Positions 43,639-60,830 are shown, numbered from the stretch's first letter. The stretch: DNA of 60,830 nt from Anaerolineae bacterium (GCA_026991225.1 JALXCB010000086.1:1-60830), one strand, 5' to 3'. Notes: generated by a model from the letters alone, not told the origin. A program made the numbers and translations.

Positions 43639-45306
43639 CTACTCCTTAATCGCGATGAATCTTCCCCACATGGACGCGGTTTCCATACCTTTGGGCAGGT
43701 AGACGGCAATGTAGTAGCGGCCGCTGGGAGTGTGGGTGATGTCTTTGCCCAGGTTTTCGGCATGGACGATGCCCTTGGGGAAGAGGTTCAGGTGGGTGTC
43801 CTGGTAGTATTTGTCCAGGGGGAACATTTCATCCCAATCCTTGCCGAATTTGGCCTTGAGTTTGGCGTTGGCTTCTTCGAAGGTCTTGGGATGCCAGATG
43901 CGCTGAATGGTGTTCATGGGATGATCCTGGCTCACCGCATCGATGCCCAGCCATTTAATCTTCTTCTCGATGGCCCAGTCGGAGAAGTCGGGCGAGGGGC
44001 CGGGATGGCGCACCATGTAGCGGAATTCGTCGGAGTCGGGGCTGTTCCAACCGTATTTGTGGAACCCGGTCTTGATGAGCAGGATGTCCCCTTCTCGCAC
44101 CTCGACCACGCTCTCGATCATCTCGGGCGTGTACACGTCCAGGTCGGAGACCAGGTGGGAGATGTCCGCGATGGCGCCCGGACCCATCCAGTGTTCCAGG
44201 GGAACCTGCCCGATAGTGCGGCCCCGGGACCAGAAGTGGATCTCGCCGTCCATATGGGTGGCCAGGTGGAAGCTGGCAGTGCAGATGGACGTGTTGCGGC
44301 CTTTGCCGAAAGCCTGGCCGCCCACGCGCTTGACGTATTTCACCACCAGGGGCTCGTAGTTGGCCCATTGGGGCGTCTGCACGCTGAAGGGCAGGGTGAA
44401 GTCCAATACCTGGGCTTCCTCCATCATCTGGAAGAATGCCTCTTCATCCATGCCCTCGGGCGGGCGGAAGGCCACGGGCCGCATCCAGGAGCTTTCCACT
44501 TCCATGAAGGGCAGGGGGAACATCATGAACCAAGCCCGCTTGCCCAGCAGTTCATCGATCTGGCCCACGATGCTTTCGGCGAAGAGGATGTGGCGTTTGG
44601 GCAGTTCGATGTGCAGCAGGCGGTAGTACTCCTCGGGCGGGAACATTTCATCCCAGGTCTTGCCGTGCTCGGCCTTGAGCTTGGCCTCGGCCTTGGCGAA
44701 TTCGGTGGGATGCATGGTGCGGATGAGGGTGTTCATGGGGTGCTCGGCCAGGCCGCAGTCCACGCCGATAATCTTGAGTTCTTTTTCGATGGCCCATTTG
44801 TAGAAGGAAAGGGAAGGGCCGGGATGCCGCACCAGGAAGCCGAATTCCTTATTCTCGACGCCGCCCTGCGCGTTGGGATTGGGGATGTCGGGCCGGTCCC
44901 AGGAGTAGCGATGGTAGCCGGTGTTGATGATGAGAATGTCCCCTTTGCGCACGTCCGCCACGCTCTCGATCATCTCGGGCGTATAGACGCTGTAATCGGA
45001 GACGAGATGGGAGATGTCGGCCACGACGCCGCGGCCCATGAGGTCTTTGAGGGGGATGTCGGCCAGGGCGCGGCCACCGGAGTGATAGGCCCGTTCACCC
45101 ACCAGGTGGGTGCCGGTGGTGTTGCTCCACTTGATGAACTGGCCGTTGGCGCCGGGGCCGCCATGATGCGCGCCCGTCACCCGCTTGAAGAAGGTAATCT
45201 CCAGGGGCTTGTCGCCGGGCCAGGGCGGGGTGAATATGCTCAAATCCTGCGCCAGGTCGTAGACTTTGGCGCTGGCAATTGTTGAAATCAAAGCCTCTCG
45301 GTCCAT
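43639..45306 (-). CDS. tandem cyclase-family (kynurenine-formamidase-like) hydrolase
   Basis: 555 residues made of two homologous halves (about 1-275 and 290-555) of the cyclase family, metal-dependent amide or ester hydrolases with motif HxGTHxDxPxH. The C-terminal half keeps the ligands (HLATHMDGEIH, 347-357). The N-terminal half has lost most of them (TTGTHLVGERAYH, with Thr and Val replacing His and Asp). The repeats VYTPEMIESV, KGDILIINTGYHRY/EGDILLIKTGFHKYGW and HPMNT occur in both halves. AAGGAG 7 nt upstream supports the start. It lies between DUF1116 and hydroxylase genes, so it probably opens a ring or hydrolyses an amide made or used by its neighbours. Confidence 0.85.
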   Translation of the reverse strand: MDREALISTIASAKVYDLAQDLSIFTPPWPGDKPLEITFFKRVTGAHHGGPGANGQFIKWSNTTGTHLVGERAYHSGGRALADIPLKDLMGRGVVADISHLVSDYSVYTPEMIESVADVRKGDILIINTGYHRYSWDRPDIPNPNAQGGVENKEFGFLVRHPGPSLSFYKWAIEKELKIIGVDCGLAEHPMNTLIRTMHPTEFAKAEAKLKAEHGKTWDEMFPPEEYYRLLHIELPKRHILFAESIVGQIDELLGKRAWFMMFPLPFMEVESSWMRPVAFRPPEGMDEEAFFQMMEEAQVLDFTLPFSVQTPQWANYEPLVVKYVKRVGGQAFGKGRNTSICTASFHLATHMDGEIHFWSRGRTIGQVPLEHWMGPGAIADISHLVSDLDVYTPEMIESVVEVREGDILLIKTGFHKYGWNSPDSDEFRYMVRHPGPSPDFSDWAIEKKIKWLGIDAVSQDHPMNTIQRIWHPKTFEEANAKLKAKFGKDWDEMFPLDKYYQDTHLNLFPKGIVHAENLGKDITHTPSGRYYIAVYLPKGMETASMWGRFIAIKE

Positions 45307-56022: not shown

Positions 56023-56334
56023 TCAGAACCGATTCTCGCCCGGGCGCAGTTCGAAATCGAAGTCGCGTTGGGCGAGGTCGACGCGGTCGACGATGGCGAT
56101 CACCGCCAGGTCGAGGGGCATCTCGGGAACGTAATAGGCGATGGCCGCTTCGCGCTTGCGGGCCATGAGCACAATGTCGCCCACGCCCGCCTGGGCCATG
56201 TCCACGGCCACCGCGGGTCTTCCCACCGGCTGCAACGCCTTGTTGAGTTGCTGCACCACCAGCAGCTTCGCGCCCTCCAGGCCCGGATATTTGCGCGTGG
56301 CCACGGCGGAGCCAATCACCCGTCCGAAAACCAT
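56023..56334 (-). CDS. BMC vertex protein, EutN/CcmL family, copy 2
   Basis: 103 residues (MVFGRVIGSAVATRKYPGLE...). The same fold as copy 1 (AKLLVVQQLN, VAVDMAQAGVGDIVLMARKR) with a divergent C-terminus. Two EutN paralogs in one operon suggest mixed or alternative vertices. Its ATG shares one base with the stop of the 96-aa gene (TGATG). Confidence 0.92.
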   Translation of the reverse strand: MVFGRVIGSAVATRKYPGLEGAKLLVVQQLNKALQPVGRPAVAVDMAQAGVGDIVLMARKREAAIAYYVPEMPLDLAVIAIVDRVDLAQRDFDFELRPGENRF

Positions 56335-56624
56335 CAGCCCTCCCCCCCCAACGTCTTCAACACGCCCGCGATGATCGCGTCCAGGCCGTCGGGCTCCGCG
56401 CCCATCCGGGCGATGACCGCGGCCCGCACCTGGGCATGGAGATCGGGTTCAGAAGGCTGCTCGGAGGCGGACGATTCCTCCGATGAGGCGGAGACCAGAT
56501 GCACGCCCAATCGCTGGGCCGTCTCCCGCGCGAGGTCGGTAACCCGCACGCCCGAATCCAGCGCCAGCGTCTTCTCGCCGCGGGCTGCGACGTCGAGGAT
56601 GTCCTGTTCGGTAAGATAACGCAT
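56334..56624 (-). CDS. small BMC-associated protein: N-terminal module plus C-terminal helix
   Basis: 96 residues. Residues 1-45 (RYLTEQDILDVAARGEKTLA then LARETAQRLGVHLV) are the same module found at the N-termini of the EutQ-like, EutT-like and 165-aa proteins of this operon. A Ser/Glu-rich linker follows, then helices (LHAQVRAAVIARMG, LDAIIAGVLKTLGG) that resemble encapsulation peptides. There is no enzymatic domain, so a role as adaptor or scaffold between cargo and shell is possible. It is tightly packed between BMC-T (4 nt) and EutN copy 2 (1-nt overlap). Inference only. Confidence 0.75.
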   Translation of the reverse strand: MRYLTEQDILDVAARGEKTLALDSGVRVTDLARETAQRLGVHLVSASSEESSASEQPSEPDLHAQVRAAVIARMGAEPDGLDAIIAGVLKTLGGEG

Positions 56625-56628
56625 GACG

Positions 56629-57255
56629 TTACGCCTCCTTGCCATCGATGGCTTCGATGGCGGCCACCGCGGCGTCTCGGGCAGCGAGGATATCGGCCTC
56701 GGTTCCGGCCATCCACATGCGCCCGAACCGCCCCACGCCGCTGACGTGCATCAAATTCACGGGCGCGGCCTTCTCCGCCTCGTTGGCGGCCAGGTTGATA
56801 TAGGCGGCCGGGGCCAGCTCCAGCACGAGCATGGTTTGGCCGGGCACCAGCATCATGCCCCGGATGGTGCGGTTCACGAGCTGAGCCTGATAGGGATCGA
56901 CGTTGGTAATGACCTGGATGGAGGCAATCTTAGGCTTGACCCGATCCTCCACCTTCAGACCCAGCCTGTCCAGCACGATTTCGCCCGCACGCAGCACGTC
57001 GGCCTGGGAGAAAGAATGCACTTCGAACATGCCGAACTCCCGCTCGACGATCTGGGCTCCGGGCCGCACGTTCGTCCCCTTCACGGCCACGTCGATCATG
57101 CGGAAGACCCAGTTGCCAGGCGACATCTCGATGTAAAGCGCGGCCATGCCCTCCACCACCAGATCTCCCAGGGTAATCGTGCCGACGAAGGCCGCGAACT
57201 GGGGCTGCATGCGGTCGAGATAGCAATAGGTGCGGAGCTGGAATTGGTCGGACAT
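56629..57255 (-). CDS. tandem-domain BMC shell protein (BMC-T)
   Basis: 208 residues containing two BMC domains, about 1-105 and 106-208, each with the RTYCYLDRMQPQFAAFVGT-like or NVDPYQAQLVNRTIRGMML-like opening and a central pore loop (GTNVRPGAQIV; HVSGVGRFGR). The order of elements looks permuted, like CsoS1D-type trimers that can stack and gate a large pore. Such trimers form part of the shell facets. The start at 57255 was chosen because the upstream in-frame sequence is repeat. Confidence 0.9.
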   Translation of the reverse strand: MSDQFQLRTYCYLDRMQPQFAAFVGTITLGDLVVEGMAALYIEMSPGNWVFRMIDVAVKGTNVRPGAQIVEREFGMFEVHSFSQADVLRAGEIVLDRLGLKVEDRVKPKIASIQVITNVDPYQAQLVNRTIRGMMLVPGQTMLVLELAPAAYINLAANEAEKAAPVNLMHVSGVGRFGRMWMAGTEADILAARDAAVAAIEAIDGKEA

Positions 57256-57410
57256 GGTGAGAGGATCAGGATTGGGATTGAGGATTGCCGGGACAAGGTT
57301 GGGCGAGGGTGCAACGGGCGTGATGCGTACTCCGTAATCCGTGAGGACATTACGCATCACGCATTACGTGACTGGTTTCCCGCGCCGACCTGGCCGCGAG
57401 ACACTTTCGT
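57256..57410. repeat. repeat inside the BMC operon
   Basis: A GGATTGGGATTGAGGATTG tract (57268-57289), then CAAGGTTGGGCGAGGGTGC, GTGATGCGTACTCCGTAATC and the inverted TTACGCATCACGCATTACG, ending GTTTCCCGCGCC. It is an inverted copy of the composite family, between EutJ-like and BMC-T genes. Confidence 0.65.
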
Positions 57411-58247
57411 TTATGTCAGCGAACCATCGCCCGCGCCGTCTTCATGCAGCATGGCGATGCCGATGGGGGTGACAAACATGGGGCGGCTGGGAGCGGTGGT
57501 GGGGATGCCGGTGACGTCGGCCACCACGTCGGTAAAGCCGGGGAAGGCGGCCGCGCCGCCCACCAGAACGATGCCCGGCACGTCGAGGCCGCGCAGATGG
57601 CGCTGGATGATGGTCGCCACCTTTTCCATGACGGGGCGAATCAGGGGGAAGAGCGCGGGCTGGGCCGCGGGGTCCAGCTTGAGGGCTTCGGCCTGCTCGA
57701 AGGAAATGCCTTTGGCCCCGGCAATGACCAGGGTGAAGTGGGTTCCGCCCGTGGGCTCGTCCGCGGTGTAGACAACCTGACCATTTTCGATGACCGCGAT
57801 GCCGGTGCTGCCGCCACCCACGTCCACCACCGCGCCATTTTCCACGCCCAGCAGGGCGTTGGCCGCGGTGGGTTCGTCGATGAGGCGGGTGCAGATCATG
57901 CCCGCGCCTTCCAGCACATAGCTCACGGCCTGGACTTCGGCCAGGGAGACGCCGGGAGGATAAGCGCTGGCGGCGGAGGTCAGCTCCACGCCCAGGCGGG
58001 ATTCGACATCGGCCTTGAGCTGTTTCACCAGATCGATGGCGCCCATGAAATCCACGACCACGCCATCGCGTACGACCTGGGCGAACTGATACGCAGCCGC
58101 CAGGGGCCGCCTGGCCCCGTCGAGGACCATGACCATGGTGTAGGCGGTGCCCAGATCGACGCCCACATGGAGCGAGCCTTGAAAATCGGACGCCCGCCGA
58201 CGGTGAACGGCCTCATCCGCGGCCGTCAGGATGGCTTCGACAGGCAT
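57411..58247 (-). CDS. eutJ: EutJ-like Hsp70/actin-fold chaperone of BMC
   Basis: 278 residues. The ATPase fold motifs are clear: phosphate-1 HVGVDLGTAYTMVMVLDG, phosphate-2 VVDVGGGSTGIAV, the connect region DEPTAANALLG and the adenosine motif VLVGGAAAFPG. EutJ/PduG-type chaperones act on BMC cargo; the exact client is unknown. Its ATG overlaps the upstream 165-aa gene by 22 nt. Usual EutJ length is about 280 residues. Confidence 0.9.
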   Translation of the reverse strand: MPVEAILTAADEAVHRRRASDFQGSLHVGVDLGTAYTMVMVLDGARRPLAAAYQFAQVVRDGVVVDFMGAIDLVKQLKADVESRLGVELTSAASAYPPGVSLAEVQAVSYVLEGAGMICTRLIDEPTAANALLGVENGAVVDVGGGSTGIAVIENGQVVYTADEPTGGTHFTLVIAGAKGISFEQAEALKLDPAAQPALFPLIRPVMEKVATIIQRHLRGLDVPGIVLVGGAAAFPGFTDVVADVTGIPTTAPSRPMFVTPIGIAMLHEDGAGDGSLT

Positions 58248-58723
58248 CGTTGAATCTCGGCCAGCGCCCACAGGATATCGTAGCGACGGTGGAGTGTGCG
58301 TGGACCATAGAGGCGGTGGGCCCAGATGATGAGAATGCGCAGGGGATCCAGCAACGCCCGGCGTTTCGTCCACGAGAAGCCATGGGCGGCCAGTTGCAGA
58401 TGCTTTGGCAGCATGACCGCAGGGCCATCCTCCGCGGCCTGGATGACGGCGTCCAGCAAATTGGCCAGCATGGGCGCGGGCGCCAGCGCCTTCCGGTAGT
58501 CGCGCAGGGCCTGGAGAAAGGCGGCGTGGGCTTCGTCGGCCCGAGGCCAGGTGTAGCCGGGCGGCACGTCGGGGCCGGTGGAGGCCGGACGCAGTTCCAT
58601 CCCCAGCTCCCGCGCCCGATCCCTGGCCAGGGGCGTCAGCCGGTCATCCGGTCGCAACGCCAGGCTGCGTTTGCCCCGGCGGGCCAGGTTGTCGATGTCG
58701 GTGGCGGTGAGGTAGGTGGGCAC
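58226..58723 (-). CDS. BMC-operon protein of unknown function with the shared N-terminal module
   Basis: 165 residues. Residues 2-45 (PTYLTATDIDNLARRGKRSL and TPLARDRARELGMEL) are the module shared with three neighbours. The C-terminal 110 residues (helical, with LANLLDAVIQAAEDGPAVML and LRILIIWAHRLYGPRTLHRR) match no family I know. The start is GTG. It overlaps EutJ by 22 nt and lies 47 nt after the EutT-like gene. Confidence 0.7.
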   Translation of the reverse strand: MPTYLTATDIDNLARRGKRSLALRPDDRLTPLARDRARELGMELRPASTGPDVPPGYTWPRADEAHAAFLQALRDYRKALAPAPMLANLLDAVIQAAEDGPAVMLPKHLQLAAHGFSWTKRRALLDPLRILIIWAHRLYGPRTLHRRYDILWALAEIQRCLSKPS

Positions 58724-58770
58724 GGTGGGGGGATGGAGTAATCAGTGTTCAGTGATCAGTAATCAGTGGC

Positions 58771-59586
58771 TCAGGGAATGCGCCAGCCGAGTTTTCCGGC
58801 TTTGAAGAGCAGTTCCAGGTAGTAGACGGCGCTGCTGAGCCGGTTCAAGGCCCGGACGAGGTCGGGCCGCGTGGGTTCGTACATGGGCGGCGGCGCGAAC
58901 GCGTCCAACGCGACCAGTTCGGCCTCCCGCACCTGCGCCCGCAGGTAGTTGAGCCAGTGCAGGATCTCGTGATCCTCCGGCCCGGGCGTCAGATGGGGGA
59001 TGCCGAGGGCGCGTTGGGGGTGATGGGTGGCTTCCCGCAGCGCGGCCTCGTCCAGACCGGCGATGACCAGGGGCGCGACCTCTCGTTCGTTGTACTCGGC
59101 GCTGACGATCTCCCGGCAATATGCAGCCAGCGTGTCGAGATGCCCGGCCAGTTCCGCCAGATTCCAGGCCCGGGCGCGAGCGGCGATGAGCTGCACCAGT
59201 CCCTGCACCGAGTCCATCTTCCCCCGAAAGCGGATGCGGGGGATATTTTTGGGCGCGAAATGGGTCGCGTCCAGTTGGGTCATGTGCTCGGGCTTGTCGT
59301 GGACGGGCTGGCCGCAAACCGGACATACGGGCCGCGGCCCGCTGAAGTTCACAGGAAACGCCGCGGGCCTGTCCCATCCCGGACGCTCTCGCTCCGGAAC
59401 CTGAGCCGCGGTCGGGGCTCCGCCGTCGCTCGCGGCGGGCGCATCCTCGACGATCTCCAATTCCCATTGATGGATGAAGTCCCGGGCCGAGGGTGAGAAG
59501 CGAGCGCCCGCGGGCACAGTGACCTTCATCCCCCGTCGGGGACGGCGGATGCGGTCGCGCAATTCAGCTTCGGTGATGATGGGCAT
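58771..59586 (-). CDS. eutT: EutT-like cobalamin adenosyltransferase
   Basis: 271 residues. N-terminal module (ITEAELRDRIRRPRRGMKVT; residues 1-46), a CPVCGQPV cysteine motif near residue 89, and KPEHMTQLDATHFAPKNIPR with IRFRGKMDSVQGLVQL, which are EutT landmarks. EutT makes adenosylcobalamin for B12-dependent BMC enzymes; no such enzyme is in the window. The start at 59586 is an ATG just before the module. It lies 20 nt after the EutQ-like gene. Confidence 0.88.
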   Translation of the reverse strand: MPIITEAELRDRIRRPRRGMKVTVPAGARFSPSARDFIHQWELEIVEDAPAASDGGAPTAAQVPERERPGWDRPAAFPVNFSGPRPVCPVCGQPVHDKPEHMTQLDATHFAPKNIPRIRFRGKMDSVQGLVQLIAARARAWNLAELAGHLDTLAAYCREIVSAEYNEREVAPLVIAGLDEAALREATHHPQRALGIPHLTPGPEDHEILHWLNYLRAQVREAELVALDAFAPPPMYEPTRPDLVRALNRLSSAVYYLELLFKAGKLGWRIP

Positions 59587-59606
59587 GGAGGGATGACGCC
59601 TGTTCG

Positions 59607-60278
59607 CTACCCGGACCAATCCGCGGGATAGGTGACGTAGAGGAATTTCGCCCAACTGGGCGTGGCGAACTGGATGCGGCTGCCTTTGGGGATGAAGATG
59701 ACGTCTCCGGGCAAACCGATGAGCGTTCCCTGGTCGGTGACGATATGCAGCTCCCCTTCGATGACGTATTCGATCTCATCATAATCCAGGGTCCATGGGA
59801 ATTCGCCCTGGTGCAGGGTCATGAACCCGGCGGCCATGGGCGAGCCATGCTCCGAAGTGATGACATCCTTGAGCCGCACGTCCATCTCGGGGCGGCCGAT
59901 ATCGAAGGGGAAAGGCTCCAGCTTCACCTCCCGGCCATTCACACGTCTTGGTTTGGGCGGGACGCGCGGGGGCGCTGGCGGGGCGCTGGTCCCCAGCACT
60001 TTCATCACGGCCGACCGCACCCGGGCCTCCAGATCATCCTCCGCGGGTTCGCCGGGCGCAGGGGATGAGGACGGCGCGGCGGGAGCGGCACGACGGGCGG
60101 CGCTCCAGGGCGGCAGATCGCGGTCTTCGTCGTCAGGATAGACGAGCTTCAAACCCAGTTCGCGCGCCCGGTCCCGGGCCAGGGGCGTGACGATATCGTC
60201 CCGGCCCAGAACCAGGGCGGTCTGGCCATCCTCATGCACCAGCCGTTCGATGATTTCGGCGGTGAAGAGTTGTTTCAT
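59607..60278 (-). CDS. eutQ: EutQ-like cupin protein of BMC
   Basis: 223 residues. Residues 1-45 are the shared module (KQLFTAEIIERLVHEDGQTA, then TPLARDRARELGLKL). A Pro/Ala/Ser linker follows, and then a possible encapsulation-like helix (LEARVRSAVMKVLG, about 82-96). A cupin domain (about 125-223) ends the protein: LHQGEFPWTLDYDEIEYVIE, GELHIVTDQGTLIGLPGDVI, FIPKGSRIQFA. EutQ proteins are linked to acetate metabolism and to BMC biogenesis. It is the second gene of the operon as seen in this window. Confidence 0.9.
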   Translation of the reverse strand: MKQLFTAEIIERLVHEDGQTALVLGRDDIVTPLARDRARELGLKLVYPDDEDRDLPPWSAARRAAPAAPSSSPAPGEPAEDDLEARVRSAVMKVLGTSAPPAPPRVPPKPRRVNGREVKLEPFPFDIGRPEMDVRLKDVITSEHGSPMAAGFMTLHQGEFPWTLDYDEIEYVIEGELHIVTDQGTLIGLPGDVIFIPKGSRIQFATPSWAKFLYVTYPADWSG

Positions 60279-60399: not shown

Positions 60400-60690
60400 C
60401 TACTCCTCCAACGACGGCAGAATCCCTTCCACATCGCTGTGAGGGCGAGGGATGACATGCACGCTGACGAGTTCGCCCACGCGCTGGGCCGCGGCCGCGC
60501 CGGCGTCGGTGGCGGCTTTCACCGCGCCTACGTCCCCGCGCACCATCACGGTGACGTAGCCGGCGCCGATCTTTTCTTTGCCGATGAGTTTGACGTTGGC
60601 GGCTTTGACCATGGCGTCGGCGGCCTCGATGGCGCCGACCAGGCCTTTGGTTTCGACCATGCCGAGGGCGATCATGTTGATGTCTGCCAT
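60400..60690 (-). CDS. hexameric BMC shell protein (BMC-H), possibly longer at the N-terminus
   Basis: 96 residues from the ATG at 60690. [20 protein letters not shown], the pore-region [18 protein letters not shown] and the ending [10 protein letters not shown]-like [13 protein letters not shown] are standard for PduA/EutM-type shell hexamers. An AGAGG about 10 nt upstream supports this start. Yet the frame stays open upstream to the window edge (46 more codons), encoding a Pro/Ala-rich stretch ([20 protein letters not shown]). An N-terminal extension or fusion cannot be excluded. Confidence 0.93.
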
Positions 60691-60772
60691 TTTTCGTGCC
60701 TCTTTTCCAGTAGGATGAGTAGGGGGAGCCGCGGGCGGCGGGGCCGGTTCCGACGGCTCGGGCGGTTGGGTT

Positions 60773-60830
60773 GATTTGTTGATGCTATCTCCCTGGCCCG
60801 CGGGGGCCGGGGAGATAGCATCAACAAATC
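60773..60830. repeat. 26-bp-arm inverted repeat at the window end
   Basis: The left arm GATTTGTTGATGCTATCTCC (60773-60792 and on to 60798) and the right arm GGAGATAGCATCAACAAATC (60811-60830) are perfect reverse complements over 21 bp. After one mismatch, another GGCC pairs. The loop is 6 nt (60799-60804). It ends exactly at the last base. Confidence 0.9.

Follow-up and report, generated by a model that had tools for sequence, protein, structure and literature searches.

The sequence under study, hereafter the window, is a stretch of 60,830 nucleotides from an Anaerolineae bacterium (GCA_026991225.1, JALXCB010000086.1); its last 5 kb constitute part of an ethanolamine-utilisation (Eut) microcompartment operon, encoded on the minus strand. 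The EutM-like BMC-H shell protein (60400..60690; PF00936, E=4.9e-30; NF012018, E=3e-40), the predicted docking partner in what follows, lies next to a 223-residue EutQ-like protein (59607..60278), whose C-terminal EutQ cupin (residues 125-222; PF06249, E=1.4e-38) scores 132.5 bits against a curated cut-off of 21 and thus meets membership of the EutQ family. The 271-residue EutT-like cobalamin adenosyltransferase (58771..59586; NF011595, E=3.5e-33) likewise meets EutT membership, with 38.4 bits against a curated cut-off of 24 (PF01923, E=1.7e-9). Then come a protein of 165 residues (58226..58723), EutJ (57411..58253; NF011660, E=5e-103), a CcmP-like BMC-T shell protein (56629..57261; NF053796, E=1.6e-77, below the cut-off of that model), a protein of 96 residues (56334..56624) and the EutN/CcmL vertex protein (56023..56334; PF03319, E=5.8e-24). 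The genes for the EutQ-like, EutT-like, 165-aa and 96-aa proteins, which are the subject of this work, were confirmed at these positions, all on the minus strand.

In the same genome, contig C6 carries EutA, a further copy of EutM and a permease, and contig C153 carries EutC, EutL and the aldehyde dehydrogenase EutE, these gene names being read from the sequence. The eut locus is split across several contigs (the window, which ends at 60830, C6 and C153) and the two EutM copies are very similar; such a pair could possibly account for the assembly breaks. In close relatives of the same genus, one of which is recorded as an Anaerolineae MAG, the eut genes are united in one locus. In relatives, one copy of EutM is preceded in the same protein by a small, Cys/His-rich N-terminal domain and a Pro-rich linker (L054 10790-11371; L055 11008-11595; L062 9763-10350), the Cys/His-rich domain having a weak match to DUF5763, below its cut-off; in the window, the EutM frame (60403-60828, minus strand) contains an in-frame Pro-rich stretch truncated by the contig end. 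Elsewhere in the window, a 555-aa open reading frame (43639-45306, minus strand) resembles, by eye, two tandem copies of a cyclase-like domain.

The initial annotation, made from the sequence alone, had claimed that the four neighbouring proteins share a 45-residue N-terminal module. This claim held, by pairwise alignment and by profiles: the N-terminal 44 to 46 residues are homologous across all four proteins, and the unit spans about 44 residues. Local alignments of the N-terminal 48 residues, scored against 2000 shuffles, gave z=17.3 for the 165-aa and 96-aa proteins, z=15.5 for the EutQ-like and 165-aa proteins and z=7.1 for the EutQ-like and 96-aa proteins, with 0/2000 shuffles reaching the observed score in each case; the N-termini of the neighbouring EutJ and CcmP, used as controls in the same test, showed no similarity (z between -0.8 and 0.6). 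The module occupies 60141..60278 in the EutQ-like protein (residues 1-46; profile match E=6.4e-21, as a seed sequence; alignment to E. coli EutQ z=9.7), 58583..58720 in the 165-aa protein (profile match E=5.4e-20, also a seed sequence) and 56493..56624 in the 96-aa protein (profile match), and is marked by a nearly invariant T-x-x-A-R/K-D/E motif. In EutT it occupies 59449..59586 (residues 1-46, profile match). EutT is the divergent member, with pairwise z=1.4 to 3.2 against the other modules of the window, FSPSARD in place of their TPLARD or TDLARE, and no ELG. Its membership is nevertheless secured by the alignment of the E. coli EutQ and EutT N-termini (z=6.5), by the iterated profile (E=5e-13, the EutT of the window being in the seed) and by the profile-profile comparison of the 165-aa family with the EutT family, which match over exactly the module (E=1.8e-6).

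In terms of fold, the module is predicted to be a compact α/β unit. The AF2 model of the 96-aa protein (21 sequences) places strands at 2-4, 19-22, 26-28 and 42-45 and helices at 6-15 and 30-39, with pLDDT of 90-94 over residues 1-40, under 50 in the linker and about 70 in two further helices (62-74 and 81-93). The model of the 165-aa protein, built separately from a different alignment (7 sequences), shows the same strand-helix-strand-strand-helix-strand order (strands 3-5, 20-23, 27-29 and 43-46; helices 7-15 and 31-39; pLDDT about 90), followed by a linker of weak confidence and a separate helical bundle. It should be kept in mind that the strands rest on these two models alone, from 21 and 7 sequences, and that Yang et al. 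describe only the helices H1/H2. The finding that would have refuted the idea of a docking module, namely that it is an integral part of differing folds, is not borne out: both models show a compact unit and a linker, and the module occurs at either end of unrelated folds. On the strength of these predictions and of this placement, it can be regarded as a separable folded unit, joined by a linker to its partner.

No Pfam or NCBIfam model of the module was found, sequence searches gave no convincing solved structure (best E=0.11), and fold searches with the module returned only fragments of unrelated α/β proteins (Z about 5). The E3-binding domain PF02817 was considered, on matches of 13.4 and 15.6 bits over helix 2, and dropped because these lie under the cut-off of 23.7 and the predicted module has four strands. 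An internal duplication, suggested by the strand-helix-strand pattern occurring twice, was also discarded, as profile comparison of the two halves gave nothing.

The 165-aa protein consists of the module, a linker and a helical bundle (AF2 helices 62-79, 84-97, 118-139 and 148-162); it has homologues in 6 other genomes of the genus and is kept in most of those sampled. When its helical domain was used in a fold search, PduO-type transferases, ferritins and designed bundles came up with comparable Z values (8-10). That it is a decayed EutT is not supported: beyond the module, no sequence similarity to the catalytic domain of EutT was seen, and the structural matches are unspecific.

For the 96-aa protein the initial annotation needs correction: it is more than a module, and has a C-terminal two-helix segment (H3/H4, 56346..56441, predicted to bind cargo peptides) behind a disordered linker. 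This layout, supported by profile, AF2 and profile-profile comparison, is that of the N-terminal region of EutQ, with a folded N-terminal part, a flexible linker and two C-terminal helices; the family aligns over its whole length with residues 1-105 of E. coli and Klebsiella EutQ (hhalign E=1.2e-8, 98 columns). In Salmonella, EutQ H3/H4 binds the EutC peptide and requires L89 and V93 (Yang et al. 2025, PMC12487888); the 96-aa family has isoleucine and valine at these places, Salmonella numbers having been put on E. coli EutQ by matching five published residues (offset 4). Typical encapsulation peptides are present in close relatives at the start of EutC (MDQNQIEAIVQAVLNELKKK) and at the end of EutE (DVDIEAIVRRVLQELG). 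The 96-aa protein is thus likely to be a free-standing shell-cargo adaptor, the counterpart of the EutQ N-terminus, although both its shell binding and its peptide binding are inferred, in the absence of binding data. The window's EutQ-like protein shares only H3 with the 96-aa protein, in the form of an amphipathic helix, EDDLEARVRSAVMKVLGTSAPP (59976..60041; H3/H4 profile, positions 2-23 only, E=6e-4), and has no match to H4.

The distribution of the module was surveyed with an iterated profile on the open reading frames of 100 BMC loci (20 Chloroflexota stretches and 80 named loci found through EutM), more loci being added later; the domain-wide census rests on these 80 named loci, on plasmid records and on Chloroflexota genomes. 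Some reading frames are open at contig ends or begin upstream of the likely start codon, so that positions are approximate. The search found many carriers: at least nine kinds of organelle proteins hold the module, in BMC loci of several phyla. N-terminal copies are present on every EutT domain (23/23), on 24 of the 28 EutQ cupins and on each 165-aa homologue that possesses the C-terminal domain (6/6). One PduL and about 30 short adaptors like the 96-aa protein also have the module at this end, as do 6 of 19 RpiB proteins, in which an encapsulation-like helix precedes it. At the C-terminus, it is found on 18 of 19 TIGR02536 proteins, on acetylating aldehyde dehydrogenases (5/74) and on PduL (3/48); one further PduL is a module-EutT-PduL fusion, and an EutQ-EutT fusion with one module also exists. 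Up to four carriers occur in one locus, and carriers frequently hold an encapsulation-peptide-like helix as well.

Several of these arrangements deserve mention in their own right. An N-terminal module is fused to a class III aminotransferase (L186 139-1635) and to a malate/lactate dehydrogenase (L191 6472-8307), which may hint at unusual BMC chemistry in Chloroflexota. In L054 (9616-10590), an EutQ N-terminus (module and H3) is in frame with an EutT catalytic domain, the EutQ cupin and the EutT module being missing; this junction, seen in a single MAG, could be either a module swap that arose naturally or an artefact of chimeric assembly. Satellite clusters with the order EutN, 96-aa-like adaptor, EutN, EutN lie apart from the main BMC locus of the genome (L066 8160-9533; L068 9941-11390; L194 8219-9556). 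In the second BMC locus of Paenibacillus faecalis (L198 10385-11128), a module-bearing protein beside EutJ weakly resembles the EutT catalytic domain (hhalign E=4e-5); by eye it lacks the usual Cys motif and is perhaps an inactive EutT.

Such sharing raises the question as to whether the module merely reflects recent tandem duplication within this operon, without a common function. In favour of this explanation, the module of the 165-aa protein has its closest counterparts on EutQ and the 96-aa protein within the same genus. Against it, modules with the same partner in other loci have a mean similarity score of 79, compared with 43 for other partners in the same locus and 38 for other partners elsewhere, and sharing is also seen in E. 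coli and C. difficile. These scores indicate that most module-partner pairings are old. As an explanation of the sharing in general, recent duplication is thus refuted and all but excluded; the 165-aa protein, which is likely to be a younger, genus-level addition, may nevertheless have arisen in this way.

In the genomes searched, the module is restricted to microcompartments. Among 400 Chloroflexota genomes, 20 have the module; BMC-H genes are present in 18 of these 20 and in 11 of the 380 without it (Fisher p=9e-22), and all 19 genomes with a match better than 1e-4 have shell genes. Of the two exceptions, one (G405) lacks BMC-H but has a truncated CcmP gene adjoining the adaptor at a contig end, and the other (G306) has one weak partial match (E=4e-4). 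A search of four more genomes (3.4-5.9 Mb) gave 11 matches at E<=0.05, which lie in BMC loci or, in one case, on a BMC-type RpiB. Conversely, the module is absent from 11 of the 29 BMC-bearing Chloroflexota genomes, of which ten belong to a single family (f28), and no match was obtained in 45 of the 80 sampled BMC loci; it therefore belongs to some compartment types and is not universal.

This restriction could in principle reflect shared chemistry, the module binding a small ligand or a non-shell pathway protein. The nearly invariant motif could be a ligand site, and cofactor enzymes are among the carriers. However, the partners are chemically unrelated (cupin, adenosyltransferase, RpiB, PduL, aldehyde dehydrogenase, aminotransferase, malate/lactate dehydrogenase) and the module also occurs on adaptors without any enzyme, which makes this explanation very unlikely.

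The initial annotation had further proposed that the module is a docking element for a common partner such as the shell. Published work on EutQ supports this proposal. Residues 1-99 of Salmonella EutQ are enough to target GFP; EutQ without H1/H2 (9-41) stays with the cargo and without H3/H4 (62-99) stays with the shell (PMC12487888), and the EutM pull-down needs the EutQ N-terminus (PMC4827028). PduM, another carrier, is required for the association of shell and cargo, its loss partly separating the two in Pdu (PMC9132943). By homology, the module corresponds to the H1/H2 region that directs Salmonella EutQ to the shell, a role published for EutQ only. Homology, separability, mobility, restriction to BMC loci and the EutQ-like layout of the 96-aa protein are all shown; that bacterial metabolosomes use the shared N-terminus as a mobile, self-contained unit for docking at the shell is a likely reading, without direct binding data for EutT, the 96-aa protein or the 165-aa protein. 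Shell binding by all carriers, and at a common site, is inferred.

A different possibility is that the module is a core-organising hub, through which carriers bind each other or a cargo scaffold and not the shell. The presence of up to four carriers in one locus is compatible with this, as is the encapsulation-peptide-like helix that carriers often hold. In Pdu, PduM remains with the cargo, not the shell, when PduB 1-37 is missing (PMC9132943), which also favours a hub. Yet Salmonella EutQ without H3/H4 is still kept with the shell by its H1/H2 region, whose NMR signals do not shift with the cargo peptide (PMC12487888); the hub is thus unlikely. The PduM result does imply that the module in Pdu may need the PduB N-terminus or bind something else.

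In the preferred shell-docking reading, the module would attach to the shell's inner face, to EutM and EutL in the case of Salmonella, and would be joined by a flexible linker to whatever partner it carries. This is most simply read as a division of labour: EutQ, EutT and the 165-aa protein would sit docked at the shell through the module, and the 96-aa protein would act as the shell-cargo adaptor, its module holding the shell and its H3/H4 holding the N-terminal encapsulation peptide of EutC and the C-terminal one of EutE. A bolder version has all carriers (EutQ, EutT, PduM, TIGR02536, PduL, aldehyde dehydrogenase, RpiB, aminotransferase, dehydrogenase and free adaptors) docking at the same shell site, with PduM and the TIGR02536 protein serving as linkers where EutQ lacks the module; we would not lean either way on this version. 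If it were true, Gram-negative and Gram-positive Eut compartments, described as assembling differently, would use the same part on different proteins.

While the function of the EutQ N-terminus is already published, the recognition of a shared mobile module appears to be the new part. No paper uniting the module-bearing families was found in the open-access literature searched, where TIGR02536 appeared in an unrelated context only; subscription literature and preprints were beyond reach, and others may already have noted that EutQ and EutT are alike at their N-termini. The module ties isolated observations (the EutQ N-terminus at the shell, the need for PduM, the unexplained tails of EutT and TIGR02536) into one testable rule for the attachment of metabolosome contents, and proposes the missing linker of Gram-positive Eut compartments. 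It can also serve as a sequence tag by which organelle proteins that lack annotation may be found, and as a folded element that could replace encapsulation peptides when enzymes are to be sent into engineered compartments.

The closest known system is Salmonella EutQ, which has a homologous N-terminal module and whose entire 1-105 region, including the cargo-binding H3/H4, is matched by the 96-aa protein; unlike in the Salmonella account, the module is here also found on EutT, on a helical protein of 165 residues and on an enzyme-free protein of 96 residues. In C. difficile, EutQ lacks the module, EutT has it at the N-terminus and the TIGR02536 protein at the C-terminus (residues 196-238, E=2e-10). 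The C-terminal 40-45 residues of PduM and of TIGR02536 (eut_hyp) are the same module, but behind a different domain; the PduM copy is diverged, weak by HMM alone (E=0.002 to 0.016) and clear only by profile-profile comparison (PduM against TIGR02536, E=2.5e-7, the match ending in the module). Encapsulation peptides resemble the module in being terminal, linker-joined and able to recruit proteins to microcompartments, and many proteins have both; they are, however, single short amphipathic helices of about 15-20 residues, a description that the module, a folded 44-residue α/β unit with two helices and four strands, does not meet. By comparison, CsoS2, CcmN and PduB 1-37 are work-alikes that tether cargo to the shell (as compared in PMC12487888), the likeness being one of role only.
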